The position numbers and the translations under genes were made by a program. A DNA stretch of 64,000 bases from assembly GCF_040529335.1 (NCBI RefSeq), contig NZ_CP159534.1, positions 7,874,001 through 7,938,000 on the forward strand. The letters are read 5' to 3'. Of the stretch, positions 12,492-59,066 are shown piece after piece (within the stretch, counting starts at the first letter, position 1; every line of letters starts with the position of its first letter). The notes beneath the pieces were generated by a model. The model did no database searches and was not told where the DNA came from. It worked only from the letters and a program-made list of their open reading frames with translations. The stretch comes from Streptomyces sp. HUAS MG91. GTDB lineage: Bacteria > Actinomycetota > Actinomycetes > Streptomycetales > Streptomycetaceae.

Positions 12492-12498
12492 GGAATGC

Positions 12499-30614: not shown

Positions 30615-30633
30615 GGGGGAGAGTTTTCTCCCT
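30615..30633. promoter_or_regulatory. MmyB-associated motif, site A
   Basis: GGGGGAGAGTTTTCTCCCT lies between the divergent regulator (start 30579) and alcohol dehydrogenase (start 30762). Its first 12 bases are identical to site B upstream of the related regulator at 36178. Internal symmetry GGGAGA/TCTCCC supports a dimeric binding site. Confidence 0.6.
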
Positions 30634-30761
30634 GGATAGATCGTCCCCGGAAGCTTTTCTCCGCTTTCCGCGCCCGTCTGCCCGTGTGATTCTCGAAAAC
30701 AAGAAGCCGCATGCCGTTCTCCGAAGGTTGCGGCACCTGGCACAGCGAAGGAAGCACCACC

Positions 30762-35293: not shown

Positions 35294-36178
35294 TCAAGGG
35301 CCGACGTCGCGCGGACTTGCGGTGGCAGCGTGGGTGGGGTCGGAAGCCCAGGTCGCGAGCAGGCGTAGGGCATCGTGCGACGGGCTGCCCGGTTCCGCGC
35401 TCCAGATGATCATCTGCAGGTTCGGGTCGGCCGCCCAGGTGACCGCGTTCCAGTCGAGATACAGGTCCCCGACGACAGGATGGCGCAGGTGCTTGGTGCC
35501 GGTGTCGCGGGTGGCGACATGGTGCGCGGTCCACCACTGGCGGAACTGGGCGTCGCGGTCGGAGAGTTCGTCCACGAGCCGGGTGAGCTGCGCGTCGTCC
35601 GGGCTGTTCGCGTTGTGCATGCGCATCTGGGCGATGGCGAGCCGGGTGACCTCCTCCCAGTCCGCGTAGAGCGTGCGCATGGTCGGGTCAGTGACGAGCA
35701 GCCTGACGAAGTAGCGGTGCTCCTCGGGGATCTCGCCAAAGTCGGTGATCAGAGCGGCGCCCATCACGTTCCAGGCGACGATCTCGGTACGCGGACCGAT
35801 GACGAATGCGGGGGCGAGGGCCAGGTCGTCGAGCATGCGCTGCAGCTGGGGCTGGACCGTGGGGTGCGACGGAGGCCGCGGCGGGCGATAGTCGTCCCTG
35901 GCTGCGAGCCCGTACATGTAGGCGCGCTGGTCGTCGTTCAGGCGCAGAGTTCGGGCCAGGGACGCCAGCACGGAGGGTGATGCCGGGATCCGTCCCTGTT
36001 CAAGGCGGGTGTAGTAGTCGGTGCTGATGGCGGCGAGCATGGCGACTTCTTCACGGCGCAGCCCCTTCACCCGGCGCTGGCTGCCGTCGTCGGGCAGTCC
36101 GACAGCCGTCAGCGTCAGCTCGGTGCGCCGAGCCTTGAGGAACGCTCCCAGGTCATCCCGTTGGGGATCGTGCTTCAT
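35294..36178 (-). CDS. XRE-family regulator with MmyB-like ligand domain
   Basis: 294 residues from the ATG at 36178. Helix-turn-helix KGLRREEVAMLAAISTDYYTRLEQGRI, then the MmyB-type domain (IVAWNVMGAALITDFGEIPEEHRYFVRLLVTDPTMRTLYADWEEV, ELSDRDAQFRQWWTAHHVATRDTGTKHLRHPVVGDLYLDWNAV). It is closely similar in layout to the regulator at 29710-30579. Upstream on the same strand lie a DUF2255 gene and a quinone-oxidoreductase-like gene. Site B of the shared motif lies 57-75 bases before its start, so autoregulation is likely. Confidence 0.9.
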   Translation of the reverse strand: MKHDPQRDDLGAFLKARRTELTLTAVGLPDDGSQRRVKGLRREEVAMLAAISTDYYTRLEQGRIPASPSVLASLARTLRLNDDQRAYMYGLAARDDYRPPRPPSHPTVQPQLQRMLDDLALAPAFVIGPRTEIVAWNVMGAALITDFGEIPEEHRYFVRLLVTDPTMRTLYADWEEVTRLAIAQMRMHNANSPDDAQLTRLVDELSDRDAQFRQWWTAHHVATRDTGTKHLRHPVVGDLYLDWNAVTWAADPNLQMIIWSAEPGSPSHDALRLLATWASDPTHAATASPRDVGP

Positions 36179-41790: not shown

Positions 41791-44421
41791 GTGACCGACA
41801 ACACTCAGCGCCTGGATCGCAGGCCAAACAGCGCCTCTGAATTGCCGACCCAGTACTCGCCGGCAGAAGTAGAGGGAGCGCTGTACGAGCGCTGGGTAGA
41901 GCGCGGATACTTCGAGGCCGATGCAAAGAGTGACAAACCTGCCTACACGATCGTCATCCCCCCGCCGAACGTCACGGGATCACTCCACTTGGGCCACGCG
42001 TTCGAGCACACGTTGATCGACGCACTCACCCGCCGCAAGCGCATGCAGGGCTTTGAGACCCTGTGGCAACCGGGGATGGACCATGCCGGCATCGCCACCC
42101 AGAACGTCGTCGAGCGTGAGCTCGCCAAGGAAGGAAAGTCCCGTCACGACCTTGGTCGCGAGGCGTTCGTCGAACGCGTGTGGGAGTGGAAGGCCGAATC
42201 CGGTGGGCAAATCGCCAGCCAGATGCGGCGCCTCGGCGAAGGCCTGGCGTGGAGCCGAGACCGCTTCACCATGGACGAGGGCCTGTCCCGTGCTGTGCAG
42301 ACCGTCTTCAAGAAGATGTTTGATGACGGACTGATCTACCGCGCTGAGCGCATCATCAACTGGTGCCCACGCTGCCTCACAGCGATCTCGGACATCGAGG
42401 TCGACTACCAAGACGACGACGGCGAACTTGTCTCCATGAAGTACGGGGACGGCGCAGACAGCATCATCGTCGCCACTACACGTGCGGAGACGATGCTCGG
42501 TGACACCGCCGTCGCTGTTCATCCCGACGACGAGCGGTACGCGCACCTGATCGGAAAGCGAATCAAGCTCCCGCTGACCGACCGGTCGATTCCTGTCGTC
42601 GCCGATACGCACGTCGACCCGGAGTTCGGCACTGGCGCTGTCAAGGTGACCCCCGCCCACGACCCGAACGACTTCGCTATCGGACAGCGCCATAACCTCC
42701 AGTCCATCGAGGTCCTCGACGAACGCGGCATCATCACCGTCCACGGCCCTTTCCAAGGTCTCGACCGCTTCGAGGCGCGCTCTTCCATCGTCGCCGCCTT
42801 GCGAGCCGAGAATCGGATCGTTGCGGAGAAGCGCCCCTACGCCCACTCAGTCGGACACTGCTCGCGTTGCAAGACAACGCTCGAACCGCGTCTGTCCCTG
42901 CAGTGGTGGGTGAAGGTCGAGACTCTCGCCAAAGCCGCGGGAGACGCGGTGCGCGACGGCCGGGTTGACATCCACCCGGCTGACATGGCGCAGCGGTACT
43001 TTGACTGGGTCGACAACCTCAACGACTGGTGCATCTCGCGCCAGCTGTGGTGGGGCCATCGCATCCCGGTTTGGCACGGTCCAAACGGCGAGCTGGTTTG
43101 CGTCGGCCCGGACGAGGAGCCGCCGTCTGGTGAGGGCTGGGCACAGGACTCAGACGTCCTCGACACGTGGTTCTCTTCAGGCCTGTGGCCGTTCTCGACG
43201 CTGGGCTGGCCGGAGCAGACCCCGGACCTGGAGAAGTTTTATCCCAACTCCGTTCTGGTCACTGGCTACGACCTGATGTTCTTCTGGGTCGCCCGGATGA
43301 TGATGTTCGGCCTGTATGCGATGGACGGGCAGCCGCCGTTTAGCACCATCGCGTTTCACGGGATGGTGCGCGACGAGTTCGGCAAGAAGATGTCGAAGTC
43401 GTTCGGGAATACGGTCAACCCCCTCGACTGGATGGATAAGTACGGCTCCGACGCCTTGCGCTTCACGCTCGCCAGGGGAGCCAACCCGGGCGTCGACGTT
43501 CCGATCGGCGAAGACTGGGTCCAGGCCTCCCGCAACTTCGCCAACAAGATCTGGAACGCAACCCGCTTCGCGGTCATGAACGGCGCCACGGTCGACGGTG
43601 AACTCCCACCCACCGAAAAACTGTCGACGACCGACCGATGGATCCTCTCGCGACTGAACAAGGTTGTGGCCGAGGCTGACGCATACTACGACGACTACCA
43701 GTTCGCCAAGCTCGCGGACACTCTGTATCACTTTGCTTGGGACGAAGTGTTCGACTGGTACGTCGAGCTGTCAAAAACCACGTTCTTCGACGGTGGTGAG
43801 CAAGCTGACGTCTCGGCCCGGGTCCTGGGTAAAGTGCTAGACGTCACCCTTCGACTGCTCCATCCCATCGTCCCGTTCGTCACCGAAACCCTGTGGACCA
43901 CACTGACGGGCGGAGAGACAATCGTCACCGCCAACTGGCCGAGGCATGCGGGAGTCCGTGACGATGCTGCCGAGAAGGAAATCGCGCTGGTCCAGCAGAT
44001 TGTCACCGAAGTCCGCCGTTTCCGCTCGGACCAGGGACTACAGCCGGGACAAAAAGTCCCGGCACGCCTAGAGTTTCACGACACTGGCCTCGCTTCGCAC
44101 GAGCCAGCCGTCCGCCAACTGCTCCGTCTCCAGCCGGAGGGCACAAGCTTTACCGCCATCGCTTCCCTGCCAGTCGCCGGCATCACTGTCTCGCTCGACC
44201 TATCGGGTGCTATCGACGTGGCAGCCGAACGCAAGCGCCTCGGAAAGGACTTGAGCACGGCCGAGAAGGAGAAGGCGCAGGCGGAGGGCAAGCTTGGCAA
44301 CGAGGCGTTTCTTGCGAAAGCTCCTGACAACGTGGTCGAAAAGATCCGTACCCGTCTGGCTAAAGCCGAAGAGGACATCGTCCGCATCCAGACGCAACTC
44401 GACAAGCTGCCGGTGCAGTAA
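41791..44421 (+). CDS. valS: Valyl-tRNA synthetase, full length
   Basis: 876 residues, the length expected for bacterial ValRS. It charges tRNA-Val with valine. Visible: HIGH-type motif HLGH at 66-69 ([13 protein letters not shown]), [12 protein letters not shown], the editing domain ([39 protein letters not shown]), KMSKS motif near 532 ([11 protein letters not shown]), and the C-terminal coiled-coil arm. Start GTG at 41791 with an apparent leaderless promoter. Its third positions look less GC-rich than neighbouring genes. Streptomycete core genomes carry a housekeeping valS in a conserved context unlike this one, so this may be a second copy, perhaps a resistance form; the window alone cannot prove that. 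Confidence 0.95.
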
Positions 44422-44470
44422 GCACTCCTAACGAAGTGATCTTCGAGGTGGTTGGATCACTCCGGGACTG

Positions 44471-44795
44471 ATGATCCGGGGGTGCGGGGTGGCTCGGCCG
44501 AAGCCGTGGGAAGTCGATGACGAGTTGTGGGCAGTAATCGAGCCACTTCTGCCCAGCCGACCGCGCCTACAAAGGCGGCGGCTCGTGGGTGACCACCGCA
44601 GTCCGGCGCCCACCAGGCGGATAGCTCTCGCCGACACAGCTCACCGTCAACCGCGCACTCGCTCAGGCCAGGGCGCCAGTCGAGCGCGGTGTGGTCCGGC
44701 TGAAGTCCTGGCGGATCTTCCGCAGATCCCGATGCAGCCCGAATCGAATGACGTCAATGGCCAAGGCCGTCCTCACGCTCGAGCGGCAACGCTGA
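44471..44795 (+). mobile_element. IS5-family transposase remnant (internal deletion)
   Basis: The first part reads VARPKPWEVDDELWAVIEPLLPSRPR, the N-terminus of IS5-type DDE transposases. After a break, another frame reads ALAQARAPVERGVVRLKSWRIFRRSRCSPNRMTSMAKAVLTLERQR and stops at 44793-44795, which is the C-terminal end of the same family. The catalytic middle is gone. Decayed element, not active. Confidence 0.8.
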
Positions 44796-44804
44796 AAACG
44801 CTCG

Positions 44805-45034
44805 ATGACCGGCCGCTGGCGGGTCATCTCCGACCACCATGTGGAGTACGGCATACAGCGGCTGTGCAAATTTTCGGTGTCTCCCGCTCCGACTTTTACC
44901 GCTGGCGTGCGGCCGAGCCTGCCCGGCTTGCTTGGTGCAACAACCGGCGCCGCCATTCCGTGCTCGGTCACGTCAGCCCGTTGGACTTCGAACGGCAAGG
45001 ATGCGGATCTAATAGCCTGAACCTGACTGTATAG
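44805..45034 (+). mobile_element. IS3-family transposase (orfB) remnant
   Basis: One frame gives VEYGIQRLCK, then the next gives FGVSRSDFYRWRAAEPARL and WCNNRRRHSVLGHVSPLDFER: the start of orfB joined directly to its end, with a frameshift and deletion of the DDE core. It directly abuts the IS5 remnant, marking this point as an insertion hot spot between the synthetase gene and the lanthipeptide cluster. Confidence 0.8.
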
Positions 45035-45125: not shown

Positions 45126-46223
45126 TTACCGGCCTCCTTCGGTCTGTCTGATCACGTACTCACTCGTCACCAGCGCCCCTGAAAGGCGGTCTAAGAGAGG
45201 GGCGGGAGTTTCTCCTGCTTCGAGCGCGCACGCATCCACGACGCCGCGACATTCCTGTTGCTGCTCGGCAGTGGCGTGTTCACGGAAGCCAGGATGTGCG
45301 AGGGCTTCGCGTGCGGCATACCCGTCCCCTGGCTCGCTCGCGCATAGGTATAGGTGCTCGGTGATCTGGCGTGCGGCGTGGCGGTTGTCGTGCACAAGGT
45401 CCAGAGCGGTCAGAGCGAGCCTTGTGCGGAAGACGGTTGTGCCGGGCCCGGATGCGAGGGTGACGCAGTTCTCGGCAAGGTCGAATTGGACCTGGCAGGT
45501 GAGGTCACCGACTTCCCGCCGGTGTAGTGCGGATAGGCAGGCGGTGACGGTTCGTTCCCACGCCTCTCCTGATTCGGTCGCGGACAGGAGATGTTCCGCG
45601 CGTGTGCTGTCGCCTTCGACGAGGGCAGTAAGGACGGCGACTTGGCGGCCGTCGAGCATGCGGTTGCCGATGCCGTGATGTGTGGCGAGGTGGGCGAGGG
45701 CTTCGTTCCAGCGGCCTTGGGTGGTGAGGGTGCGGGTGCCGTCGGCGAGTAGGACGCGCCACAGCCAGGCGTGGACCTCGTTGCGGTCGGCCGGGGTGGC
45801 GGTGAGGTGCGCGGGGATCATCACGTCGTCGAACTGGGTGGACGTGGTGGTGCGGACGGCGTCGTACAGGGCAGTCAGCCGGTGGCGTCCTTCGTCGGCG
45901 TGGCCAGACCGAATACGGAGCCGGGCGAGGTTGACGACGGGCTCCAGGGCGCGGATGGCGCTGGTCGCTGGCAGAGGACAGGCGAGCAGGTAGGCGGCCG
46001 CGTGCTGGTGGCACATCGCTGCGGCGATCTCGGGCAGGCCGAGGTCGGAGGCGAGGAGCGCGGCCTGGTTGAAGACGGCGGAGGCGCGGCCCGAGTTGGC
46101 CTCCTTCGCGGCGCTGTCGGCCAGCTCGGTGAGGGCGGTAACGCGTTCGGGCAGGGGCCGGCAGGCGGGCCGGTGCCGGGCGATGAGCGGGAAGCGGCGG
46201 GCTATCGGCCCCGTCGGGTCCAT
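45126..46223 (-). CDS. Helical-repeat protein at the end of the lanthipeptide gene group, function unknown
   Basis: 365 residues from the ATG at 46223. The sequence is almost entirely alpha-helical and Ala/Leu/Arg-rich, with repeat-like stretches (SGRASAVFNQAALLASDLGLPEIAAAMCHQHAAAYLLAC; NLARLRIRSGHADEGRHRLTALYDAV), similar in style to TPR proteins. No catalytic motif, signal peptide or membrane segment is visible. It lies 78 bases downstream of the FxLD methyltransferase gene on the same strand, so it is probably co-transcribed. Possible roles are a scaffold or regulator of peptide maturation; this is inference. Confidence 0.7.
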   Translation of the reverse strand: MDPTGPIARRFPLIARHRPACRPLPERVTALTELADSAAKEANSGRASAVFNQAALLASDLGLPEIAAAMCHQHAAAYLLACPLPATSAIRALEPVVNLARLRIRSGHADEGRHRLTALYDAVRTTTSTQFDDVMIPAHLTATPADRNEVHAWLWRVLLADGTRTLTTQGRWNEALAHLATHHGIGNRMLDGRQVAVLTALVEGDSTRAEHLLSATESGEAWERTVTACLSALHRREVGDLTCQVQFDLAENCVTLASGPGTTVFRTRLALTALDLVHDNRHAARQITEHLYLCASEPGDGYAAREALAHPGFREHATAEQQQECRGVVDACALEAGETPAPLLDRLSGALVTSEYVIRQTEGGR

Positions 46224-46301
46224 CAGGGTTCCTCCGTCGGTCGCAGACGTCAGGGACAGGCGCCCGCCCAGCCCGTGGCGCGATGAGCGGGCGCCGAACG
46301 A

Positions 46302-48377
46302 CTACTGCCAGTTGACGATGATCCGGTTGAGCGGTGTGGCGAGGGTGAAGCGGCCCGGGTGCTGCGGAGGCGTCGGGGCGTCGTGTGCCTGGATCTCGAA
46401 GGTTGCTTCGTGGCCGCGGTACTCGCGGTTCCAGGTGCGGATCAGGTCGGCGAGGGTGGTGGTCAGCTTGTCGCTGCCGGGGCCGTGGCCGATGACGCCG
46501 AACTCCCACAGCTTGCCGCCGTCTTCCGTCGTGCGCTCCAGCAAGCGGCGGGCGAGATAGGTGACGGCGCCGCCGTCGACGGCGGCCGTGGAGGACGGGT
46601 AGGGGTCCTCGGTCAGCAGTGTGCCCTTGGCGGCGGGCGGGAACAGCATGCGGATCAGGCCGGACGGCAAGGAGCAGGTGAGGTACAGCTCCATCCACTC
46701 GGGCGACTCCATGGCCCGCACCGTCATCCCGGTCCACTCCTCGACGCGCGGCTGCGCCAGGACATCCGCGAGCGCGTCGACGTCGACGGACACTCCGGAG
46801 GGAGCCTGCAGGCGAACGGTGCCGTCCGCGGTGAGCGGGATGACCCGGCGGTCGTCGTCGGCGATGCCGCGCCGCAGCGGCATGAAGGTGTTCATCGCCG
46901 AGTCCAGAGACTGCCATCGGCCATCACGCTGCTCGTAGGCGATGGACCGCGAGACGCTGCCCTTGAGGCGCTGGGGGGTGACGAGCCGACCGCCGGGGGC
47001 GAGCTGGTCGAGCCAGGCGTGCGGGATGCCGTGGGCGCCGACGGTGGCGATGATCCGGTCGTACGGAGCGCCTTCGGCGTGGCCGAGCGCCCCGTCGCGA
47101 GTGATCGTCTCCACGTTGGTGATCCCGGCGGCCGCAAGGTGGGCGCGGGCGCCTTCGACGAGATCGTCATCGACGTCGATGGTGGTGACGCGCCCCTCGG
47201 GGCCGACGAGGTGGGCGAGCAGGGCTGCGTTGTAGCCGGTTCCGGCGCCGAGTTCGAGGACTCGCTGCCCCGGCTGGACCTGAAGTTGGTCGAGCATACG
47301 GGCCACGACGCTGGGCTGCGACGCGCAGGAGATCGACGTGCCCTCGCTGTCGTACTTGATGTGCACCGTCGCGTTCTTGTAGGCGTCCTCGACCGACGCG
47401 TCAGGAACGAACAGGTGCCGGGGCACGGAGCGCAGAGCGTCTTCGGTCGCAGGGCTGAGTCCGTTTCCGGCGGCCTGGAGCTGGTCGACGAGCGCGTTGC
47501 GGAGCTGCTCGGCGTCGGCCGCGGAGGGGGTGATCGTGCCGGTGTTCACTGGGCCGACGCTATCGGCGTTCGGGTGTGTTCCGGCTGCTGACGCGGTGTT
47601 GTCACTCGATCCCATGACTGCCTCTCGTGCGATGAACGAAATAGCGTGCTGGTCGTCGCGGGACAGACCGGCACGGTTGGCGTGGAAGAGAAAGTGGTGC
47701 GCGATCACAGCCCGCAGACCGCGCGTCAGGCCCCCGGATGCGGCCAGCTCCCCGAGGCGCCGCCCTGCGTCCTCGAACGCGGTGGTCCAGCCGTCGCGGT
47801 TGGCGAGCGGGCCGTCGGGGCGTGCCAAGGAATGGGCGTCGACGGTCATCAACCGCAGCATGGCCGGGCGTTGCTGCTCCAGGGCGCGCGCTGGCAGAGC
47901 CGCAGTGGCTCGTTGCCGCAGATCGGCGACCTTCGCCCACACGTCGCCTTGCTCGAACCAGTCCAATCGGGCGCCACGCATCATCGCGCTGAGCAGGAGA
48001 ACCGCGGTCTCCCGGCGGCCCAGTCTGCCGCGGCCGGGCGGGTAGGCGAGGAGGTGATAGCTGTCCGCGTGAAAGAGGCCGTGGGCGGCATTCATCACCG
48101 CCGGGCCGCCAAAGGCCCAGGACTCCGGCTCGTAGCAGACCGGCGTCCACTCCTGCACGATGCGGTCGCCGACTAAGGCGGTGAGCGTGCGCTCGATCAG
48201 CGGTACGGGGCCGTCGGCGCGGTACCGCAGCGGCCAGGGCTGCTTGTTCATGAACCACCAGTCGGCGAGGTCGCCGGCCTCCTGGGCGGCACGCAGCGCG
48301 GGACCGATGCGCTCGCTGATGGCGTCGTGCCCCGCCGCACGGCTGGTGAAGGTGATGTTGTTCTGCTGCCATTCCAT
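46302..48377 (-). CDS. FxLD-system methyltransferase: thiopeptide-type domain fused to an isoaspartate-type O-methyltransferase
   Basis: 691 residues from the ATG at 48377; the frame to 48887 overlaps the LanC gene and is not family-like. Residues about 1-270 match the thiopeptide-type bacteriocin biosynthesis domain (WQQNNITF, WWFMNKQPWPLRYR, YEPESWAFGGPAVMNAAHGLFHADS). From about 300 it resembles protein-L-isoaspartate methyltransferases, with SAM motif VLELGAGTGYNAALLAHLV near 371 and ISCASQPSVVARMLDQL before it. Enzymes of this kind in lanthipeptide clusters are known to methylate an Asp and lead through succinimide to isoaspartate. The precursor here has Asp-Asp-Gly in its core, a fitting site. 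It lies 20 bases after the LanC gene. Confidence 0.88.
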   Translation of the reverse strand: MEWQQNNITFTSRAAGHDAISERIGPALRAAQEAGDLADWWFMNKQPWPLRYRADGPVPLIERTLTALVGDRIVQEWTPVCYEPESWAFGGPAVMNAAHGLFHADSYHLLAYPPGRGRLGRRETAVLLLSAMMRGARLDWFEQGDVWAKVADLRQRATAALPARALEQQRPAMLRLMTVDAHSLARPDGPLANRDGWTTAFEDAGRRLGELAASGGLTRGLRAVIAHHFLFHANRAGLSRDDQHAISFIAREAVMGSSDNTASAAGTHPNADSVGPVNTGTITPSAADAEQLRNALVDQLQAAGNGLSPATEDALRSVPRHLFVPDASVEDAYKNATVHIKYDSEGTSISCASQPSVVARMLDQLQVQPGQRVLELGAGTGYNAALLAHLVGPEGRVTTIDVDDDLVEGARAHLAAAGITNVETITRDGALGHAEGAPYDRIIATVGAHGIPHAWLDQLAPGGRLVTPQRLKGSVSRSIAYEQRDGRWQSLDSAMNTFMPLRRGIADDDRRVIPLTADGTVRLQAPSGVSVDVDALADVLAQPRVEEWTGMTVRAMESPEWMELYLTCSLPSGLIRMLFPPAAKGTLLTEDPYPSSTAAVDGGAVTYLARRLLERTTEDGGKLWEFGVIGHGPGSDKLTTTLADLIRTWNREYRGHEATFEIQAHDAPTPPQHPGRFTLATPLNRIIVNWQ

Positions 48378-48397
48378 GGGGTGACTCCTTCGGCCGG

Positions 48398-49603
48398 TCA
48401 GGAGGTGAGAACGCAGGCGTCCCATGCCGTGTGGGGCTGCTGTAGGCCGGACCAGACGGCAAGGGCGATGCCGGCGGCGCCGTCGAGGAAGCCGGGCTCG
48501 TCGGGCACGGTCACCGTGGCAACCAGATCTGGAATCACGGCCCGGAGTCGTTTCGCGGTCAGCGCTGGTGCGTCTGTGGCGGCGCGGGCGGCGATGTGGG
48601 CGAGTCCCGAGCGGCCGTGGCATAGGCCGGAATCGGTCAGTGGGGCGAGCTGCGCGGGGTCGGTGCAGGCGGCAAGGAGGGCGTGCTCGGCGGCGTCTTG
48701 CCGGGCGCGGTCGCCCAAGGCTAGTGCTGCGAGTTGTTGGGCACGGGCCAGGCCGGCAGTCCCGTAGCACCACGAGGGCCTGCGCATCGCAGAGGGCTGC
48801 GCGCGGCCCGCACGCAGTTCCTCTCGGGTGATCCAGTACGGCCAGAGGGTACCGCCGAGGCTTTCTTGTTCCCAGCGGTCGAGCCAAGCGAGAACAGCAC
48901 GAATCGCCTGGTGATGGTGGTCGGTGGTCAGGCCGCGCTGGGCGGCCAAGGCGAGGAGTGCGAGCGTGCCGCCGATGCCGTGTGCGACCCCGTTGTTGGC
49001 GTGACCGTCAGGGAATCGGTCGTCAGGCTTGCCCGACGGACCGGCTGGCGCCCACCATCCGGGCAGAGCGTCACCGTCGGCATGGAGCGTGTCGGTCAGG
49101 CGGGCACAGTAGTCGAGGACGGCCTGCGTCGCGACGCTGTCCGGCTGGTGGTGGATCAGGTAGGTGCCGTAGCCGGTCAGTCCGCGGATGGCGTCGAATT
49201 CGGCGAGAGCGGGGGGCGTTCCCTCGTCGAGGCGGCACTGTGCTCGGGCGATGCGGGCCAGCACGTCGGCGGTGATCTGCCGGTCGAGCAGGTCGCGGGT
49301 TCGCCGGTAGCTGGGCATGTGCGGGGCGGCTGTGGCGACGGCGTGGGCGAGGGCAGGCGCACCGTAGAAGGGGTGGCTGTCGCGGCCGCTGGTGACGGGA
49401 CCGTGAGTTGCTGCGGTGAGCCAGGCGTGTGCGTGTTGCCACGGACCTTCTTCGGCAACGGCCAGCTCGATGTGCAGCAGCGCGATGCCTGGAGGCCCGT
49501 ACGCCAGGTGCTGACGGTGCTGGGTGATGGTGAGGCGGGGCACGGTGGCGGGGTCGGCCAGCCGTTCGGCGACGGTGAGGACAAGGCCGGGTGGGCGGGT
49601 CAT
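48398..49603 (-). CDS. lanC: LanC-type lanthionine cyclase
   Basis: 401 residues from the ATG at 49603, which overlaps the LanB stop by 4 bases. LanC proteins are zinc enzymes that add Cys thiols to dehydrated Ser/Thr to form (methyl)lanthionine rings. The zinc ligands are visible: Cys near 278 in RPSWCYGTAG and Cys-His near 326 in SGLCHGRSG; the helical toroid repeats (GVAHGIGGTLALLALAA, FLDGAAGIALAVW) are typical. Coupled translation with LanB and position before the methyltransferase gene fix its role in maturing the precursor at 52737-52910. Confidence 0.93.
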   Translation of the reverse strand: MTRPPGLVLTVAERLADPATVPRLTITQHRQHLAYGPPGIALLHIELAVAEEGPWQHAHAWLTAATHGPVTSGRDSHPFYGAPALAHAVATAAPHMPSYRRTRDLLDRQITADVLARIARAQCRLDEGTPPALAEFDAIRGLTGYGTYLIHHQPDSVATQAVLDYCARLTDTLHADGDALPGWWAPAGPSGKPDDRFPDGHANNGVAHGIGGTLALLALAAQRGLTTDHHHQAIRAVLAWLDRWEQESLGGTLWPYWITREELRAGRAQPSAMRRPSWCYGTAGLARAQQLAALALGDRARQDAAEHALLAACTDPAQLAPLTDSGLCHGRSGLAHIAARAATDAPALTAKRLRAVIPDLVATVTVPDEPGFLDGAAGIALAVWSGLQQPHTAWDACVLTS

Positions 49604-52600
49604 CGGTTCCTCCGTGCCATCCAGGACAGGGCGGTCGCGCGAGCCAGGTACAGACATACGGCCTCCTCGTCGAAGTCGATGCCGATGTGCCGTACGAAGT
49701 GGGTGTGCAGCAGCGAGGCCAGGACGTCGTCGACGGCGATGCCGCGGGTGTGAGGCCCCGGCAGGTGAGGGCGGTAGGCGGCGAGCGCCGCGGTGCGGTC
49801 TGCCCATGCGTCGACCACCTCGCTTCCGCCTGGCGCCCGGCGCAGCGCGGTCCAGTCGTCGCTCGGATCGGCCAGCCGTACGCTCTCGCTGAACTGAGTG
49901 CGGGCCACTGGTGCCGGCGCGGTGGCTGGGACGTGGTCGATGATCCAGCGCATCCCGTCCCTCGTGTCGCCCAGAAACTGGGTCGCGATGGCCACCGTGT
50001 GCGCGACGGCCAGGATTCGGGCGGCCGGGCGGTTGGGCAGGGCGAGCTGGGCGAGCATGGCCCGCGAGTCCGCGCGGAACACGTCCTCCGCGGCCTGCCA
50101 TGCCAGGCCGGAGCCCCACCTGCCCATCTCCCGGTACGACGTGGGGAATCGGAAATCGGACAGGAGCCGTTCGGCCCGCAGCTCGTCCGCCCACCGGCTT
50201 ACCACGGCCGCCATGTCGCCGAACGCGGCAGAATCGGGCAGCGCGATCCGCAGCCGCAGGTGCGGGTCAGGATCACGGAAGCGGATGAACCACCACGGCG
50301 GCCCGCCCAGTTGTTCCAGCAGCCCGGGAAGATACTGGCCAAGGAGCACGTCCTGGCGGCGCAGATCCCCGTACAGAGTGGCGAGCAGCAGCGAGCCCGT
50401 GCCGGGGGGCTGTGCCTGTGCCGCAGAGAACAGTCGATCTCGAGTGGGCGTGGGCAGAGTAGGCCAGGACACCGGCCGGACCGCTTTGAGGGGAACAACG
50501 ACTTCATGCGCACGGCCATCGCACCACCCTGACGCGTCCTCGGGCGGCGCCTCAGTCACCACGGCCTGCCCGGCGCGCTGCAGATGACGGCGCAGCAAAC
50601 CACGGTGCACGGTGTCGTCCAGATCCAGGCGCAGATGCCGGTCGCCTTGAACGAGGTGAACGTGGCGGGGAAGACGCCGCCGCGACCGCCACTCGTCGAA
50701 CTTGTCTGCCTCTCCCGGAAAGTCCACGCCCGCCAGGCGCCATCGGGCGGCGGCGAGGATCGTGCGGCCATAGCGCAACCGCGGCAGGTAGGGCAGCGCG
50801 TTCGCCGCGCCCCAGTCGAAATCGGTGACCTGGGCGTACTGGGCGCGCGCCAGTTCGGACAGGAGACGGGCCAGGGGTGGCGTGTGCTGACGCAGGTTCA
50901 GGGCGTGCAGGGCAACCGCCTCGATGCGACGGCCCTGGGCGGGCGCGGCGAGGTACATGCGGCGGCCGTCGCAGGCCACGGCGAGGTCTGCCGGGGTGAG
51001 GACGTCGTCACTGCGCGGCCGGTGTTCGTCCAGGCTGATCACGGTCGGCAGGACGCGGGGGGTTCTGGTGACGTGAGCGCTCTGGACCCGCAGTGGGGGG
51101 AACGACAACTGCGCAGCGATCGTGTCCGGGTCTGCGGTAGGCAGCTCGCGCAGCTCGGCAGCCAGTGCCTCACGGTCGTCCGCGTCCAGGACGTTAAGGA
51201 ACCGGCCGCTGATGACGCCGGCGCCGCGTGACACGCTGAGCACTTCGACGCCGAAACGGCCCCCGGACAGGTCCTCGGTGGAGGCAGCGTGGATGCGCGC
51301 TGTGATCTCCAGGTGAGGCGGGTTGCGCGGACGGTCGGGCCCCAGATTCATCGCCGCGATCAGCTCGTCGGTCAGAGTCACTTCGTCATGGCCGTCGAGG
51401 ACGGCCGTCTGGGCGAGGCGCAGCAGGGTGTCATCGCGTACGGACAGACGACGGCGCTGAGTGTCCGCGTTGGTGCCCGGATACCCATCAGGGAATCCGA
51501 TGCCGCTGTCGGCGACGACGTCCAGCATCGGCACCATCGTGCCGATGCCGTAGCGCTCGTAGAACCGGCGCTGGTACGCCTTCCACTCGGCCGTTCCGTA
51601 CGGCAGCGGGCTCACCGTCGTGAGCACCGTGGCGGCCCGCTCCAACTCCTGCGCGACAGCGCGGGGCAGGACCAGGCTGGCGTCCAGCCGCAGGTCCAAG
51701 GCGAGCGGATGTTCCGTCAGCCCCGGTGCCGCCGCGCGCAGACTGGCAGCGGCGCGGTGGCGTCCGTACCGGCCCTCGCACTTCCGGACGGCCTCCTGTG
51801 CGGCACGTACCTCGCGGACCAGGTCACACGCGGCGGGAAGGCGGGCGGCATCCGCGGCATCGAGTTGGTGCAGCAGATGACCCAGGGCGTCGGACTGAGT
51901 GCTCGGGGCATGCAGACTGGTGAGCAGCACCCGGTGACGGAGAAGCCCTACGACCAGTTCGTTGACCGTGTCGGCTGCGACGCCCGGGAAGTCCGCCGCG
52001 AGTTTCCCAACGAGGGCGTCGAACCGGATCGGATCCTGTGCCGCATCCAGCACGCGGCACACGGGGGCGCTCAGCCCGATCGACGTCTCGACGGCACGCA
52101 TATCGCCCTGGCCGGGAGACCGGAACGGTACAACAAGCCGGTCCCCGCGGACGGAGACCGTGCTGTTAACCATCACGGGAAGCCGGTCGAGCAGCTCGGG
52201 GCACGATTCGAGCCGCTCCACAACGCGAGCCAGCCACGGTGCACTGGGCTGGACAACCGGCTTGTGCCCGGTACCCCATTCGGCGCGCGCGGACGGTCCG
52301 AACGGTGCCAGGGCCACACCGGCGAGCAGACCGAACGGAGTGGCCCGGTGCGCAGCCCGCAGGAGGTAGCGCAGCACGGACGCGGTCGCCTTACCGATGT
52401 CGCGTGCGGGCGGGTTCGGCGCGCCGAGCAACGTGTTGATGCGTTCGGCGAACGCGGGGCTGGCGTGCCCCAGCGCTTCCACCGTCTCTTGGTCGTTCCA
52501 GACCGTCCGCAACCACTGCAGGCGGGCGGCAGCCGCGCCGGGCGCCGGGTCGTCAAGATCGGGGCACGGCGGGAAGGGAAGTATGGGACGGGTGACGGCC

Positions 52601-52647
52601 CGCACGAGTGCGACGTCACCACAGCGGTAGGCAGCACGCGATGCCAT
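49600..52647 (-). CDS. lanB: LanB-type lanthipeptide dehydratase, full length
   Basis: 1015 residues from the ATG at 52647 (MASRAAYRCGDVALVRA), with GGAGGA 5 bases upstream. The first 650 or so residues match the glutamylation domain of class I dehydratases (RYLLRAAHRATPFGLLAGVALA, FYERYGIGTMVPMLDVV). The last 280 match the SpaB-type elimination domain (TGSLLLATLYGDLRRQDVLLGQYLPGLLEQL, PPWWFIRFRDPDPHLRLRIALPDS, FRFPTSYREMGRWG). The enzyme uses glutamyl-tRNA to activate Ser/Thr and then eliminates glutamate, giving Dha/Dhb. Both domains are in one chain. A strong hairpin separates it from the precursor gene; its stop overlaps the LanC start. Confidence 0.93.
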   Translation of the reverse strand: MASRAAYRCGDVALVRAVTRPILPFPPCPDLDDPAPGAAAARLQWLRTVWNDQETVEALGHASPAFAERINTLLGAPNPPARDIGKATASVLRYLLRAAHRATPFGLLAGVALAPFGPSARAEWGTGHKPVVQPSAPWLARVVERLESCPELLDRLPVMVNSTVSVRGDRLVVPFRSPGQGDMRAVETSIGLSAPVCRVLDAAQDPIRFDALVGKLAADFPGVAADTVNELVVGLLRHRVLLTSLHAPSTQSDALGHLLHQLDAADAARLPAACDLVREVRAAQEAVRKCEGRYGRHRAAASLRAAAPGLTEHPLALDLRLDASLVLPRAVAQELERAATVLTTVSPLPYGTAEWKAYQRRFYERYGIGTMVPMLDVVADSGIGFPDGYPGTNADTQRRRLSVRDDTLLRLAQTAVLDGHDEVTLTDELIAAMNLGPDRPRNPPHLEITARIHAASTEDLSGGRFGVEVLSVSRGAGVISGRFLNVLDADDREALAAELRELPTADPDTIAAQLSFPPLRVQSAHVTRTPRVLPTVISLDEHRPRSDDVLTPADLAVACDGRRMYLAAPAQGRRIEAVALHALNLRQHTPPLARLLSELARAQYAQVTDFDWGAANALPYLPRLRYGRTILAAARWRLAGVDFPGEADKFDEWRSRRRLPRHVHLVQGDRHLRLDLDDTVHRGLLRRHLQRAGQAVVTEAPPEDASGWCDGRAHEVVVPLKAVRPVSWPTLPTPTRDRLFSAAQAQPPGTGSLLLATLYGDLRRQDVLLGQYLPGLLEQLGGPPWWFIRFRDPDPHLRLRIALPDSAAFGDMAAVVSRWADELRAERLLSDFRFPTSYREMGRWGSGLAWQAAEDVFRADSRAMLAQLALPNRPAARILAVAHTVAIATQFLGDTRDGMRWIIDHVPATAPAPVARTQFSESVRLADPSDDWTALRRAPGGSEVVDAWADRTAALAAYRPHLPGPHTRGIAVDDVLASLLHTHFVRHIGIDFDEEAVCLYLARATALSWMARRNR

Positions 52648-52676
52648 GGATCGTCCTCCGAGGTCCAAGGTGGGCG

Positions 52677-52711
52677 GGTGGTGCCTCTGCGGCAGACGCA
52701 GGGGCACCACC
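52677..52711. terminator. Hairpin between precursor and dehydratase genes (attenuator candidate)
   Basis: Fifteen paired bases (52677-52691 with 52697-52711, one T-G wobble) enclose a 5-base loop, 26 bases after the precursor stop and 30 bases before the LanB start. In RiPP operons such a hairpin typically lets the precursor be made in excess of the enzymes. Confidence 0.75.
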
Positions 52712-52736
52712 GTGAGCGAAGTGCGCGAACGCAGGC

Positions 52737-52910
52737 TCAGGCGACGTTGGTGGTGCAGGCGCCGCAGGTCTCGCCGCATCCGTCGTCGGTCAGGTTGATC
52801 AGACCGGCGACGTCACCGACCTCCAGCAGCACAACGTCCAGGGCGAAGCCGTCACTGGCCGCCGCGGGCTTCTGGATCTTCGTGGTCCCGGCGTCATTTC
52901 GAGGTGCCAT
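52737..52910 (-). CDS. FxLD-family lanthipeptide precursor
   Basis: 57 residues from the ATG at 52910, chosen because GGAGAG lies 4 bases upstream; an ATG at 52922 would add MESE and overlap that ribosome site. The leader is charged and Ala-rich and contains FALD at 22-25, the defining motif of the FxLD precursors. The C-terminus is LTDDGCGETCGACTTNVA, with Cys at 45, 49 and 52 and Thr at 41, 48, 53 and 54 as candidates for dehydration and ring formation; it contains no Ser. Asp42-Asp43-Gly44 is a plausible isoaspartate site. It is first in the operon with LanB, LanC and the methyltransferase. Leader cleavage site and protease are not evident in the window. Confidence 0.9.
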   Translation of the reverse strand: MAPRNDAGTTKIQKPAAASDGFALDVVLLEVGDVAGLINLTDDGCGETCGACTTNVA

Positions 52911-53408: not shown

Positions 53409-53792
53409 TCAGCCGTCGTCTCCCATCACGTCGAGGAGCGCGCTGATCGCGATGGCGAAGCGGCGTACGTACAGCAGTGCGCCATCGAGGTCGGGGCGTT
53501 CCTCGTGCAAGCCCTTCAGGCGGACGATCTCGTCCATCGGGTAGACGGGCGTCCGGTGCGGGGCGGAATAGATGAGCTGTCGAGCCGCGCTGCGGAATCG
53601 GTTGCCGATCACCAGGAGTTGGCCGGGGGTGAAGTGCTCGGCGGCGTCAAGCACGTCGTTTAAGGCGTCGTACACGGCATCGCTCAAGTCGTCCTCGGCC
53701 AGGGAGCGGGCGAGCGAGTTGATGATCCGGTGTAAGTCCGCCTCGCGGGTGGGCAGCGGCGCGCGGGCCGGCCAGGTGTCGGTGACGGTCAT
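53409..53792 (-). CDS. DUF6415-like small helical protein
   Basis: 127 residues from the ATG at 53792, overlapping the upstream ATP-binding protein gene by 4 bases. The sequence is helical (LPTREADLHRIINSLARSLAEDDLSDAVYDALNDVLDAAEHFTPGQLLVIGNRFRSAARQLI) and ends with YVRRFAIAISALLDVMG, resembling small streptomycete proteins associated with natural-product loci (DUF6415 type). No catalytic motif. Third gene of a coupled minus-strand trio. Confidence 0.65.
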   Translation of the reverse strand: MTVTDTWPARAPLPTREADLHRIINSLARSLAEDDLSDAVYDALNDVLDAAEHFTPGQLLVIGNRFRSAARQLIYSAPHRTPVYPMDEIVRLKGLHEERPDLDGALLYVRRFAIAISALLDVMGDDG

Positions 53793-54361
53793 GATGTGCT
53801 TCCTGGGGGGATTCGGAGAGTGCACCAGGTGGTGGCGCCGCCGTCGCTGGTGCCCCACTGGTCGGTCAGCAGGGCGACGAGGAACAAGCCGCGCCCGGAT
53901 TCGGAGTCCTCGGTGGGGGTCTGGAGCACGGCGGGTGTCTGCTTGCCGTCGGCTACCTCGATACAAAGGTCGTCACCCTGCAGGCGTATGCGCAGTACCG
54001 TGTCCCGGCCGCCGTGCTCGATGGCGTTCGTGACCAGTTCGGAGACGATCAGGACGGCGTCGTCGATGATGGCCGTGGGGACCTTCCAGTGGCGCAGGGA
54101 CGCGGCGGTGATGCGGCGAGAACGGCTGACGAAGCCCGGGTCGGATGCGAACGACACCTCGAATTTGCAGCGGGAGGGCGCTGCGGGAGATGCCACGGCT
54201 GGAGGAGCGGCGGGTGCGACGGCTGGTGCAGCAGCCTTGTGGACGGGCCTCTCCGGGTCGGTGGGCGAGAGAGCTGGCGGCACCAGACGGCGTTGTGTCA
54301 CCTCTCGCACATCGGTTTCCGCTGCATGATGCCGGCCCGAGCCGGTACGCGGCCGCCTCAT
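53789..54361 (-). CDS. ATP-binding protein of the anti-sigma/HATPase type
   Basis: 190 residues from the ATG at 54361 (MRRPRTGSGRH). An Ala/Pro-rich linker covers residues about 30-60. The rest is a GHKL ATPase fold like RsbW: N-box Glu...Asn in DDAVLIVSELVTNAIEHGG, G1 box EVADGKQTP and G2 box ESGRGLFLVALL. Such proteins in streptomycetes are thought to act as serine kinases on anti-sigma antagonists or as part of regulatory pairs. Start and stop overlap both neighbours by 4 bases, so the three genes are translated together. Confidence 0.88.
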   Translation of the reverse strand: MRRPRTGSGRHHAAETDVREVTQRRLVPPALSPTDPERPVHKAAAPAVAPAAPPAVASPAAPSRCKFEVSFASDPGFVSRSRRITAASLRHWKVPTAIIDDAVLIVSELVTNAIEHGGRDTVLRIRLQGDDLCIEVADGKQTPAVLQTPTEDSESGRGLFLVALLTDQWGTSDGGATTWCTLRIPPGSTS

Positions 54362-54867
54362 CGGTTCTCTCCGGTCTCCGCAGAAACGAGGGCAAGGAAC
54401 CCGCCACCGCCGTCGATGAAGGAGAGCTGCAGGGCGTACTCGTCGAGGTGCAGGGAGATCGCTGAGTAGGTCACTGCCACGACCCCGTTGACGAATCCGC
54501 CCCGGATCTGCTGCCGCGCGACGGACCAGCTCGGCCGTAACAGCGGGTCCGTCACACCGAGTCGGTCCGTGAAGACCTGCAGGCTGCTGCTCTGCCACCC
54601 CTGGGCTTCGGCGTAGGCGCGTGCCGCCTCACAGAATCGGGCGGGGGTGCTCCCGGACCGGGCAAGTACGTACAGGCACACACGCGGTGTGCGGCCACGC
54701 AGCTTTATCGCGTCAAGGCGCCGGTCGAGAACCTCGCGTCGCTCGTCCATCAGCCTCAGTAGGGGGTCAGCCTCAATGCGGGGCCGGTCCGGATTCCACT
54801 GAGCTTCGTGCTCGCGCTCGGTGTCCATCCAGTCCTGTCCCGATCGGGCAGAGATGCTCTGGCGCAT
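54358..54867 (-). CDS. Resolvase-like-fold protein, probably not an active recombinase
   Basis: 169 residues from the ATG at 54867; an internal Met at residue 14 is an alternative start. The central part (RVCLYVLARSGSTPARFCEAARAYAEAQGWQ, then FTDRLGVTDPLLRPSWSVARQQIRGGFVNGVVAVTYSAISLHLDEYALQLSFIDGGGGFLALVS) follows the serine-recombinase catalytic fold segment by segment, but the motifs are worn and the DNA-binding part is absent. It is first in a coupled operon with an ATP-binding protein and a DUF6415-like protein, so a regulatory use of the fold is more likely than recombination. Similarity judged by eye. Confidence 0.6.
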   Translation of the reverse strand: MRQSISARSGQDWMDTEREHEAQWNPDRPRIEADPLLRLMDERREVLDRRLDAIKLRGRTPRVCLYVLARSGSTPARFCEAARAYAEAQGWQSSSLQVFTDRLGVTDPLLRPSWSVARQQIRGGFVNGVVAVTYSAISLHLDEYALQLSFIDGGGGFLALVSAETGENR

Positions 54868-55143
54868 GACAGCCTCGGCTCGTAAATCAGCGGTGGGGTG
54901 CCGGCGCGGCCCGGCCCCGTGGAGCTCAGGGAAGACGCTCCCGGTAGGGGCCGGAACCGCACCACTTGATCAGGGGCAGAGGCCCCTAGGTGATCGGTCG
55001 ACAGAAATGGATCGGTCGACTCGCTCGCACAACAGGTAACCCCCGTCTCATTTCCAGGAGGTAGGGGTTCTCGCCCCGTTTCACGCAGCGGCAGTTAGGG
55101 GCTTTTGACCTCCTCTTTGCATGACGGTGAGTGCGCGTGTGCC

Positions 55144-55149
55144 TACAGT
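55144..55149 (+). promoter_or_regulatory. -10 hexamer for a leaderless regulator transcript
   Basis: TACAGT lies 6 bases before the ATG at 55156; TTGCAT at 55119-55124 could be a weak -35 element with 19-base spacing. Confidence 0.4.
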
Positions 55150-55155
55150 GCGGCC

Positions 55156-56433
55156 ATGGAGACCACGCGCAACGAGGCGCTTGAGGCGTGGATGAGCGAC
55201 CATGGGTACAGCTCCAACAGCCTGGCCAAGGAGGTGAATTCAGGTCTGGAGCGACTCACCGGCAAACTGGGGAAGTGTGACGGTCGCCAGGTCCGGGAAT
55301 GGCGAGCAGGGCGTGCCCGCTGGCCCAACGTGGCGACGCGGACGGTCCTGGAGGAACTCTCCGGGCGCACTGCCGTGGAATTAGGGTTCGTGCCACGGGG
55401 TCGGCCTTCGTCTACGGCCGCCCCACCGCAGGAGGATCCCATGTACCGCCGCACCCTCGTCGCCGGCACGGTCTCGGCCGCCGTGGCTGCCGCCGTCCCC
55501 GGCACCGCCTCCCCGCGCAGGATTGGGATGACGGACGTCACGCGCCTCCAGGACCTGTTCGCCGCGGTCGTCGCCAGCGACCACACACGCGGCGGGCAAC
55601 TCGACATCGAGCAGCGGGCCGTCCGCCTGGCCGATCGCGCGATGAACCTGCAGAACTCGGGCAGCGCCACCCAGCGCGTGCGCGGCAGCCTCTACGCCAC
55701 CGCCGCCAGTTTTCGTTCCTCGGCGATGTGGGCCGCAATTGACGGACGCCGCTTCCAGGACGCCATCGCCCACATGCGGGAGGCGCAGACGCTCGCCGAA
55801 CTCTCCGGCGATCAAGCCATCAAGTTCCGCATCTGGAGCCACGCGGGCAGCCTCTACCGTCACATGGGGCGATCAACCGACGCCCGCGCCGCCAACGACG
55901 TCGCACGCAACCTCAGCATCACGCGCCGCGACCCGATGTTCGCCTCCCTCGGCCTGGCCCGCCAGATGGCCATCCAGGGAGTCGCGCACGAACGCGGCGG
56001 CCTGCCGCGCACGTTCGACCATGCTCAGACCGCCATGGAGCGGGCCGACCAGGGGACCTTTCGCCCCCTCTGGCTAACGGCCTTCTACGACGATGCTGAA
56101 CTACACTCGCTCGCCCTCACCGCTTACCTCGCAGCCGGTATCTGGCCCACCGCCGAATTCCACGCTCACCAATGCCTGCGCGTTCTGCGACCGCACATGA
56201 AGCGTTCGCGGGCCATCGCCACCAGCCGACTCGCGCAGGCGCAGCTCGCCCAGGGTGACGTCGACACCGCCACCCACACCGCGATGAAGGTCCCGGCCGA
56301 CGCTGCTACCCAACACGCCCGGGTATCGCGCATGCTGCAAGAATTCACCGCCGCCCTGCGGGCCACCGCACCGGGCAGCGACAGCGTACGCACCTGGACC
56401 GAGCACACCGCCGCCTGGAGGGCCACAGCATGA
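55156..56433 (+). CDS. XRE-like regulator with helical-repeat C-terminus
   Basis: 425 residues from the ATG at 55156 (METTRNEALEAWMSDHGYSSNSLAKEVN). The first 75 residues form a helix-turn-helix of the type found in streptomycete regulators that end the domain with VREWRAGRARWPNVATRTVLEEL. A Pro/Ser linker and a hydrophobic segment (RRTLVAGTVSAAVAAAVPG) follow, then TPR-like repeats (IAHMREAQTLAELSGDQAIKFRIWSHAGSLYRHMGRSTDAR). It probably senses a ligand or partner through the repeats. It is divergent from the HATPase operon and overlaps the acetyltransferase start by 4 bases. Confidence 0.82.
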   Translation: METTRNEALEAWMSDHGYSSNSLAKEVNSGLERLTGKLGKCDGRQVREWRAGRARWPNVATRTVLEELSGRTAVELGFVPRGRPSSTAAPPQEDPMYRRTLVAGTVSAAVAAAVPGTASPRRIGMTDVTRLQDLFAAVVASDHTRGGQLDIEQRAVRLADRAMNLQNSGSATQRVRGSLYATAASFRSSAMWAAIDGRRFQDAIAHMREAQTLAELSGDQAIKFRIWSHAGSLYRHMGRSTDARAANDVARNLSITRRDPMFASLGLARQMAIQGVAHERGGLPRTFDHAQTAMERADQGTFRPLWLTAFYDDAELHSLALTAYLAAGIWPTAEFHAHQCLRVLRPHMKRSRAIATSRLAQAQLAQGDVDTATHTAMKVPADAATQHARVSRMLQEFTAALRATAPGSDSVRTWTEHTAAWRATA

Positions 56434-56969
56434 CCTCGGCACCCGCCATCGAACTCAGGTCATTCACCGAACTGGACGCCGCCCGCGGCGACCTGCTCGA
56501 CGTCTACGCCGAAGTCCGCGCACCTCTGCTGCATCTCGCGAACTACTCGATCACTGCCTTCGGGGAACGCATCGACAGGCACGGGGCCGAAGCCGGGTTC
56601 TTGGCCGTGCTCGCCTATGACGACGACCACCCGGTTGGGTACGCCTACGGCAACCGGATCGAGGACGGAGACCGCTATTGGCAGCGCACCGACCCGGCGC
56701 CGAGCGAGAAGTACACGCAGCACCCCGCCGTGGCACTCAAGGAGATCGGAGTCCGGCCGGGGTGGCGCGGCACGGGCATAGCGCGTCGGATCCACGACGC
56801 GCTGCTCGCCGAGCGTTCGGAACCGTATGTGACGCTCATGGTCAACGAGGCGGCCGGGGACGGGAAGGTGCACGCGCTGTACCGATCGTGGGGGTACGAG
56901 GACATCGGCTATAGCCAGCCCTCACCGGCGTCACCTCGCCTGACCGTGATGATCCGTCAGGCGCAATGA
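56430..56969 (+). CDS. GNAT-family N-acetyltransferase
   Basis: 179 residues, ATG overlapping the previous stop (ATGA). The acetyl-CoA site is in ALKEIGVRPGWRGTGIARRIHDALLAER and the final ALYRSWGYEDIGYSQP segment is typical. The pairing with an XRE regulator with helical repeats recurs in streptomycetes. Substrate unknown. Confidence 0.88.
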   Translation: MTSAPAIELRSFTELDAARGDLLDVYAEVRAPLLHLANYSITAFGERIDRHGAEAGFLAVLAYDDDHPVGYAYGNRIEDGDRYWQRTDPAPSEKYTQHPAVALKEIGVRPGWRGTGIARRIHDALLAERSEPYVTLMVNEAAGDGKVHALYRSWGYEDIGYSQPSPASPRLTVMIRQAQ

Positions 56970-58253: not shown

Positions 58254-59066
58254 TCAGATCCGCAGCAAGACGATTGCTCGCAGGTCCCAGTTGCTCAGCG
58301 GAGCGAAGGCCATGATCCGTACCCGGATTTCCTCGTCCTGGTGGTAGGGGAGCCTCAGTCGACGGACATCCCCATCGGGGTGCGCCAATGCCTCGTTCGC
58401 GGACCACAGCTCTCTGGCCTCTTCGTTCCCTGCCAGGATGTCGTCACGCAAACGGATCAGCTCTTGGCTGTCGGAGTGCATCGCGATGGCGAAACGAATC
58501 TGGGCGAGGAAGGGGGCGGCCCAGTCGGCGCGCCAGTTGACGAGCTGTTCTCGTGCCTCCGGGTAAAGGAAGGCGAACCGCATCAGGTTGCGCTCGTACG
58601 GAAGCCACGGGAACCAGTCTTCCTGCGGACGGTTGTGGGCGATGATGTCCCACGACAGGTTCGACAGGTAAGCAGGGTGAGGCAGCAGCGCATCCAGGAA
58701 TCCCTGGTGAATTGCTACTGCATCCTGGTCTGTGTGCTGCTGTGCAGCAGTAGGTGGTGTTCGCCCCAGCGCCAGGCGGTAAAGGATGACGCTTTCCGCC
58801 TCGTCGAGCCGTAGTGCCATAGCGAGCCGCTGGATGAACTGCTCGGAAACGGGGCGCGGGCGCGCGCTCTCAAGCTGGCGGTACCAGGAGCCGGCCACGC
58901 CCGTGAGTGAGGCCACTTCGTCCTGGGTGAGCCCTGGTCTCAAGCGGCGTCGAGACGTGTTGATTCCCGGGATACGTCTGGGCTCCAAACGCTCACGCCA
59001 GTGCTTAAGGAGTGGCCCCAGCTCAGGGGAGACGGGATGTTCGGAAGTGTGGTTCTTGCCACTCAC
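58254..59066 (-). CDS. XRE-family regulator with MmyB-like ligand domain
   Basis: 270 residues from the ATG at 59066. Helix-turn-helix RPGLTQDEVASLTGVAGSWYRQLESARPRPVSEQFIQRLAMALRLDEAE, followed by an MmyB-type domain (ILYRLALG; LSWDIIAHNRPQEDWFPWL; NLMRFAFLYPEAREQLVNWRADWAAPFLAQIRFAIAMHSDSQELIRLRDDILAGNEEARELW). The domain is more diverged than in the three other MmyB regulators of the window. Divergent from the ImmA/IrrE-like set at 59271, which it may control. Function otherwise unknown. Confidence 0.85.
   Translation of the reverse strand: MSGKNHTSEHPVSPELGPLLKHWRERLEPRRIPGINTSRRRLRPGLTQDEVASLTGVAGSWYRQLESARPRPVSEQFIQRLAMALRLDEAESVILYRLALGRTPPTAAQQHTDQDAVAIHQGFLDALLPHPAYLSNLSWDIIAHNRPQEDWFPWLPYERNLMRFAFLYPEAREQLVNWRADWAAPFLAQIRFAIAMHSDSQELIRLRDDILAGNEEARELWSANEALAHPDGDVRRLRLPYHQDEEIRVRIMAFAPLSNWDLRAIVLLRI

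Follow-up and report, generated by a model that had tools for sequence, protein, structure and literature searches.

A probable coi-type class I lanthipeptide cluster of the FxLD family in Streptomyces sp. HUAS MG91, with a fused second glutamyl lyase domain and a candidate partner gene

The main finding of this study, which examined a 64,000-nucleotide stretch of Streptomyces sp. HUAS MG91 DNA (contig NZ_CP159534.1, positions 7,874,001 to 7,938,000; hereafter the window), is that a five-gene operon in it is a class I lanthipeptide cluster of the FxLD family, which in all probability (roughly 0.88) is of the coi type and works by the pathway proposed below. We assign it to this type because a second glutamyl lyase domain and the methyltransferase form one fusion protein, a published architecture (PMC9486935, PMC9011353). 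A sequence-only reading of this DNA had proposed a precursor (LanA), a dehydratase (LanB), a cyclase (LanC) and an FxLD methyltransferase. The features it named lie where it had placed them, and on the minus strand, with coordinates and profile matches in agreement, and their order holds, but it overlooked both the second lyase domain in the methyltransferase open reading frame (PF14028, TIGR03891) and a fifth operon gene (45126-46223) within the very interval it had delimited.

The fused lyase carries this assignment. The domain covers approximately residues 1-260 of the 691-residue protein (PF14028, 64.2 bits; TIGR03891, 146.7 bits), and a single open reading frame holds TIGR03891 (its residues 175-424) and TIGR04364 (459-860), which makes it an extra lyase beside a full-length LanB. 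It has K45, R51 and R53, with Ala at the column of NisB R826 and no His at the column of H961, the latter in a poorly aligned region. To place these residues among relatives we used 84 regions fetched around the 87 listed TIGR04364 matches over cut-off in 150 genomes (own genome included), 57 of which have such a match; of the other three matches, two fall within fetched regions, and the third, a further copy at the opposite end of the G069 chromosome, was excluded. The set includes three overlapping or identical pairs (L065/L066, L046/L094 and L061/L062), and its genes were picked by a script from codon-position GC, by which genes may be missed. In a lyase census from which rows below 85 bits and identical rows had been removed beforehand, and in which NisB residues were placed via the alignment of NisB (4wd9) and MibB (5ehk), LanB domains account for 46 rows, of which 45 carry Arg at the R826 column and 44 carry His at the H961 column. 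Of the 30 rows from standalone second lyases, two of which come from the halves of a single split gene, 29 show Lys at the Tyr776 column; at the R826 column 28 show Ala, one Val and one a gap. The 19 rows from fused second lyases include 18 with this Lys and one with Arg at the R826 column. None of these 49 second lyase rows has His at the H961 column, a loss that rests on alignment and published papers because this stretch aligns poorly. The lyase part of CoiSA has K46, R51 and R53 and is required for full dehydration and correct cyclisation (PMC9486935); PMC9011353 gives evidence for the conserved Lys and for the two-lyase idea, and reports three CoiA precursors.

The remaining operon genes fit this assignment (Table 1). 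On the minus strand the order is lanA, lanB, lanC, fusion gene and TPR-fold gene, the start of lanC overlaps the stop of lanB, and all five genes are open, without internal stops. The precursor scores 44.3 bits against NCBIfam TIGR04363, "FxLD family lanthipeptide" (cut-off 30). In the same operon LanB scores 665 bits against PF04738 and also matches PF14028, and LanC scores 118.5 bits against PF05147. The fusion gene scores 439 bits against TIGR04364 (cut-off 320). The window LanB has the equivalents of NisB R784/R786, R826 and H961 when aligned to NisB and MibB, and the WCYG and CHG motifs of LanC are what we take to be its zinc-ligand motifs.

Table 1. Features of the lanthipeptide operon and its upstream neighbours (positions in the window)
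Feature	Position	Strand	Evidence
lanA, 57-aa FxLD precursor, ATG start, FALD leader motif, core ending LTDDGCGETCGACTTNVA	52737..52910	-	TIGR04363
lanB, 1015 aa, full-length class I dehydratase with canonical glutamyl lyase domain	49600..52647	-	PF04738, PF14028, alignment
lanC, 401 aa, cyclase with WCYG and CHG motifs	48398..49603	-	PF05147
Fusion gene, 691 aa, CoiSA-like: non-canonical (syn-type) lyase and FxLD protein-aspartyl methyltransferase	46302..48377	-	TIGR04364, TIGR03891, PF14028, PF01135
TPR-fold gene, 365 aa, fifth operon gene, candidate CoiH homologue	45126..46223	-	Family alignment, co-occurrence, AlphaFold2 model
HATPase_c_2 protein upstream, true start probably inside the open reading frame	53789..54598	-	PF13581, 57.9 bits
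NsdA-family TPR-like candidate regulator, divergent	55105..56433	+	NF053720, 240.5 bits
GNAT acetyltransferase adjoining the NsdA-family gene	56430..56969	+	PF13508/PF00583

The precursor is also conserved. Here we drew on a second set as well, the best 80 of 173 loci located through the TPR protein, in which seven of the 84 regions were fetched again; the 88 precursor loci from both sets, some of them in both, represent 70 distinct leader-plus-core strings. The core type of the window, T-x-D-[G/N]-C-x-x-[T/S]-C-G-A-C, is the commonest among those recovered, with 67 fetched loci (some fetched twice) and 64 distinct precursor DNAs. T41, D43, C45, G46, C49, G50, A51 and C52 are invariant in all 64, while synonymous codons differ at several positions, and T54 is Thr in 63 and Ser in one. 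The core TDDGCGETCGACTTNVA is identical in nine of the 70 distinct strings, the window's own counted, and the 18-residue end recurs unchanged in L082. The window lanA is a genuine gene and no chance open reading frame. Its core shows strong conservation next to LanB in many Streptomyces, so the refuting outcome that the sequence-only reading had named, a frame not conserved at that place, did not arise, and the earlier proposal of an FxLD-type class I cluster with a real precursor stands.

This conservation also suggests a ring pattern. The core has no Ser, so only methyllanthionine rings are possible, as had been claimed. We predict rings T41-C45 (around D43), T48-C52 and C49-T54, with T53 as the spare Thr that had likewise been anticipated. 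The third ring is placed on T54 because the second position after the last Cys is conserved as Thr or Ser (69 of 70 distinct precursors), whereas the first is variable (Thr or Ser in 59, Ala, Val or Asn in 11). The spacing of T41, C45, T48 and C49 equals that of T43, C47, T50 and C51 in CoiA1, where the rings are Thr43-Cys47, Thr50-Cys55 and a D-allo-L-methyllanthionine from Thr57 and Cys51 that depends on the CoiSA lyase (PMC9486935).

The methyltransferase half of the fusion protein, which matches PF01135 in addition to TIGR04364, fits the LanSA/PAMT sequence family. In related enzymes the Asp methyl ester collapses to an aspartimide and then to isoAsp/Asp (PMC13001092, PMC10787088 and PMC7268733), and TxDGC is a published core motif (PMC10787088). 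D43 of the window precursor lies within TDDGC and is followed by Gly; among the 64 CGAC-type DNAs, 46 encode Asn at this next position and 18 encode Gly. By analogy with these relatives, whose ester collapses, a lasting +14 Da on the product is not expected, so that the methyl shift which the sequence-only reading had recommended as a mass spectrometric readout would not persist (PMC13001092). LanB was present in 58 of the 84 fetched regions; in the other 26 (e.g. L076-L078, L080 and L105) the methyltransferase exceeds the TIGR04364 cut-off and no LanB was found in the fetched stretch, and such methyltransferases perhaps belong to other peptide classes.

Cassettes of this type in several sister species lie on what we read as actinomycete integrative elements. 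When the fetched stretches of the 80-locus set were probed for six element genes, relaxase was found in 27 loci, integrase in 19, both in 15 and at least four of the six genes in 12, all matches falling among the 68 fused-type loci and none among the 12 others. Among the 84 regions, relaxase occurs in two of 21 fused-type regions (re-fetched as L143 and L120) and in none of the 29, 26 and 8 of the other classes, and there is one integrase match in the standalone class. In 15 of the 80 loci the TPR gene has a tRNA-Arg(CCT), tRNA-Thr(CGT) or tRNA-Lys(TTT) gene on its right. In eight of 11 records searched (L149, L143, L130, L124, L165, L135, L184 and L151, with L202-L209) a second, like-oriented copy of the 3' half of tRNA-Arg(CCT) or tRNA-Thr(CGT) lies at a distance of 17-34 kb, and the entire lan cassette falls between the two copies. 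These repeats span the anticodon loop to the tRNA end and are exact over 43-47 bp in five records and 86 bp in one, the imperfect ones being 43 bp with two mismatches (L165) and 40 bp with one (L135). An NsdA-family gene (69-71% identical to that of the window) and a GNAT gene (76-82%) also lie between the repeats in all eight. Relaxase, rep, spdB, XRE and integrase genes are kept in L149, L143, L130 and L184, a piece of one element gene in L124, L151 and L135, and none in L165. We read the eight bracketed loci as integrative elements, some of them decayed, for which the role of the coi-type cassette as cargo is well supported. The likeness to actinomycete integrative and conjugative elements (AICEs; PMC9513070) is that some sister cassettes are flanked by tRNA direct repeats and accompanied by relaxase, replication initiator, XRE and integrase genes. 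In the literature searched, which took in few subscription papers, we found no previous account of lanthipeptide clusters on elements of this kind, and the passages of PMC9513070 that were consulted hold no word beginning with "lant".

The window copy differs from these AICEs in that, as far as tested, it has neither repeats nor element genes: no tRNA gene was found in the window, the six element proteins have no match there, and the longest direct repeat between the flanks of the cluster is 14 bp. It may be a stranded copy of an integrative element, because the cassette is shared with the bracketed loci and these marks were not found. Just past the TPR gene, at 44440-45034 on the plus strand, there are pieces that by eye resemble insertion-sequence transposases in more than one frame, with no family match. 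A natural question is whether the cluster has itself decayed into an element leftover that makes no product now. Besides the transposase-like pieces and the lack of any att repeat or mobility gene found for this copy, the missing exporter and protease would fit such a loss: as the sequence-only reading had noted, no ABC transporter or peptidase family occurs among the scanned window proteins (50 entries of selected open reading frames, a few duplicated, rather than a full annotation), and the two MFS transporters (24755-26194 and 33129-34382) are more than 10 kb away. However, the five genes are open, the active-site residues examined are intact, and the core is of the commonest type found, and we consider decay unlikely. 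Absence of a protease is also published for both the coi (PMC9486935) and olv clusters.

The fifth gene belongs to the operon and encodes a protein with a predicted TPR fold. Among the LanB regions, 37 of the 50 that have a second lyase also carry this TPR gene, vs none of the eight that have none (p ~1e-4). The eight include two cut contigs (L060 and L103), where a second lyase would have escaped notice; when these, L045 and repeats are excluded, the counts are 34 of 46 vs none of six (p ~9e-4). All 34 matches to the TPR protein above 250 bits in the 150 genomes lie at lanthipeptide loci. The gene is placed after the second lyase in both of two gene orders, and it is the next probed gene after the lyase/methyltransferase genes in 79 of the 80 loci, although its mere presence throughout that set is by construction, because the loci were located through the TPR protein. 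The AlphaFold2 model of the window protein has a mean pLDDT of 94.4 and is nearly all helix, and TPR proteins head its VIA-align list; TPR profile models match some family members, not the window's own protein. We regard the gene as a candidate homologue of coiH. That it could instead be an unrelated neighbour is suggested by the 13 of 50 second-lyase LanB regions that lack it, of which L045 has a contig ending less than 300 bases from the lyase gene and the other 12 have at least 3 kb beyond. With the location of all 34 matches above 250 bits at lanthipeptide loci, the position next to the lyase/methyltransferase genes and the agreement of both gene orders against it, this seems improbable. 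A broken orphan copy of the TPR gene was seen in L201 (9380-10846), with no lanthipeptide genes found around it.

We propose the following pathway for the window cluster. The N-terminal domain of LanB would glutamylate core Thr residues with Glu-tRNA; Glu-tRNA-dependent glutamylation of Thr is established for the LanB family. The LanB lyase would then eliminate glutamate in anti fashion at T41 and T48, giving (Z)-dehydrobutyrine (Dhb), and the fused second lyase in syn fashion at T54, giving (E)-Dhb. LanC would form the rings T41-C45 and T48-C52 and, in reversed direction, C49-T54; this third ring would be D-allo-L-methyllanthionine, and T53 would remain plain Thr. The methyltransferase would next esterify D43 inside the first ring, and the ester would pass through an aspartimide, which would open mainly to isoaspartate. 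The predicted product is a peptide with three rings whose backbone and ring geometry are unusual. In this pathway the TPR protein probably acts as a partner that binds the peptide or an enzyme, and leader removal and export would fall to genes elsewhere.

Several points weigh against this proposal. Gene order, domains, active-site residues and conservation were observed directly, but every chemical step is taken over from published coi and olv work. The fused relative L075 carries Arg at the R826 column, and the poorly aligned H961 stretch of second lyases has other His residues close by. R51 and R53 are weak evidence because the R51A and R53A variants of CoiSA retain much activity, the glutamylated peptide accumulating with K46A (PMC9486935). 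The geometry of the third ring is extrapolated because CoiA1 has one residue more between its last two Cys, and T53 instead of T54 could close it. CoiH is named in PMC9486935 only as a protein of unknown function in coi, absent from olv. A last alternative, in which the fused domain, which is related to thiopeptide pyridine synthases and has neither the canonical catalytic Arg nor, as aligned, the His, serves docking or other chemistry while the LanB lyase does all eliminations (a non-elimination function was raised by Walker 2020; PMC7268733), is very unlikely, since the window domain has the Lys and Arg residues of CoiSA, whose lyase gave three-fold dehydration together with lyase-dead CoiB and in whose absence at most one dehydration was seen (PMC9486935).

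Comparison with known systems shows both similarities and differences. The coi cluster of Streptomyces coelicolor A3(2) (CoiA1/B/C/SA/H; PMC9486935, PMC9011353) has the same gene order, as judged from accession numbers, a fused lyase/methyltransferase with the key residues, an extra protein, the T-x-D-x-C and T-C core pattern and no protease. It differs in having three reported precursors vs the one found here, and in its last ring region (T50, C51, C55 and T57 in CoiA1, T-C-G-A-C-T-T in the window). The olv cluster of Streptomyces olivaceus NRRL B-3009 (OlvA/B/C/SA) shares LanB, LanC, an aspartate-modifying methyltransferase and the conserved core Asp, but it lacks both a second lyase domain and CoiH, and its product has an extra lanthionine. 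In the SapT system (spt), the non-canonical lyase SptBb has the conserved Lys and gives D-allo-L-methyllanthionine; because the spt LanB is split, SptBb, unlike the window domain, does not come on top of a complete LanB. Finally, the class I families I 1-4 of Walker 2020 (PMC7268733) have actinobacterial precursors whose core Asp is fully conserved, together with a PF01135 methyltransferase, to which extra elimination domains are often fused, with no difference in principle from the window cluster, which looks like a further member of this group with no numbered family assigned.

The cluster kind is thus already published, and the window itself adds little that is new beyond one more member of a large class I group, for which specific rings and an isoaspartate are predicted; what specialists might not know is the linkage to elements and the dedicated TPR gene. 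No natural product of coi or olv has been reported from a native host, and their function is unknown (PMC9486935). The near-invariant core across many species, the dedicated TPR-fold partner gene and the residence in integrative elements offer handles on this function, and residence in mobile elements in some sister species may help explain the wide distribution of the gene set. A doubtful extension of these findings is that the coi-type cassette is regular cargo of tRNA elements and its lanthipeptide a signal rather than an antibiotic, with the TPR protein as its intracellular peptide receptor or partner, like Rap/NprR. Together with the NsdA-family regulator, this protein would influence the element or the development of the host; the signalling part of this extension is speculation.

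Upstream of the operon, relatives of the NsdA-family gene, the GNAT gene and the ATPase gene were found in 35, 35 and 43 of the 80 loci, respectively. The earlier claim that the window has no dedicated regulator is challenged by this NsdA-family gene, which is a candidate regulator only; genes of this family also occur away from lanthipeptide clusters. The HATPase_c_2 gene is a recurrent neighbour and a putative member of the system only. A second class I cluster lies near 3.28 Mb on the same contig (C1:3279583-3285070; L034 and L109), with LanB, a TIGR04364 gene and a precursor that matches TIGR04363 more weakly than that of the window and ends SSDGCGHTCASACASS, without a clear FxLD motif; neither a second lyase nor a TPR gene was found there. 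Beside the window cluster, at 41791-44421 on the plus strand, there is a second valyl-tRNA synthetase, 79% identical to the copy at C1:2919771, and two such matches were also seen in G011, G038, G169 and G178 among the 150 genomes. The 64 kb further hold four MmyB-like (MLTR_LBD) regulators, at 12358-13365, 29710-30702, 35294-36178 and 58254-59066.

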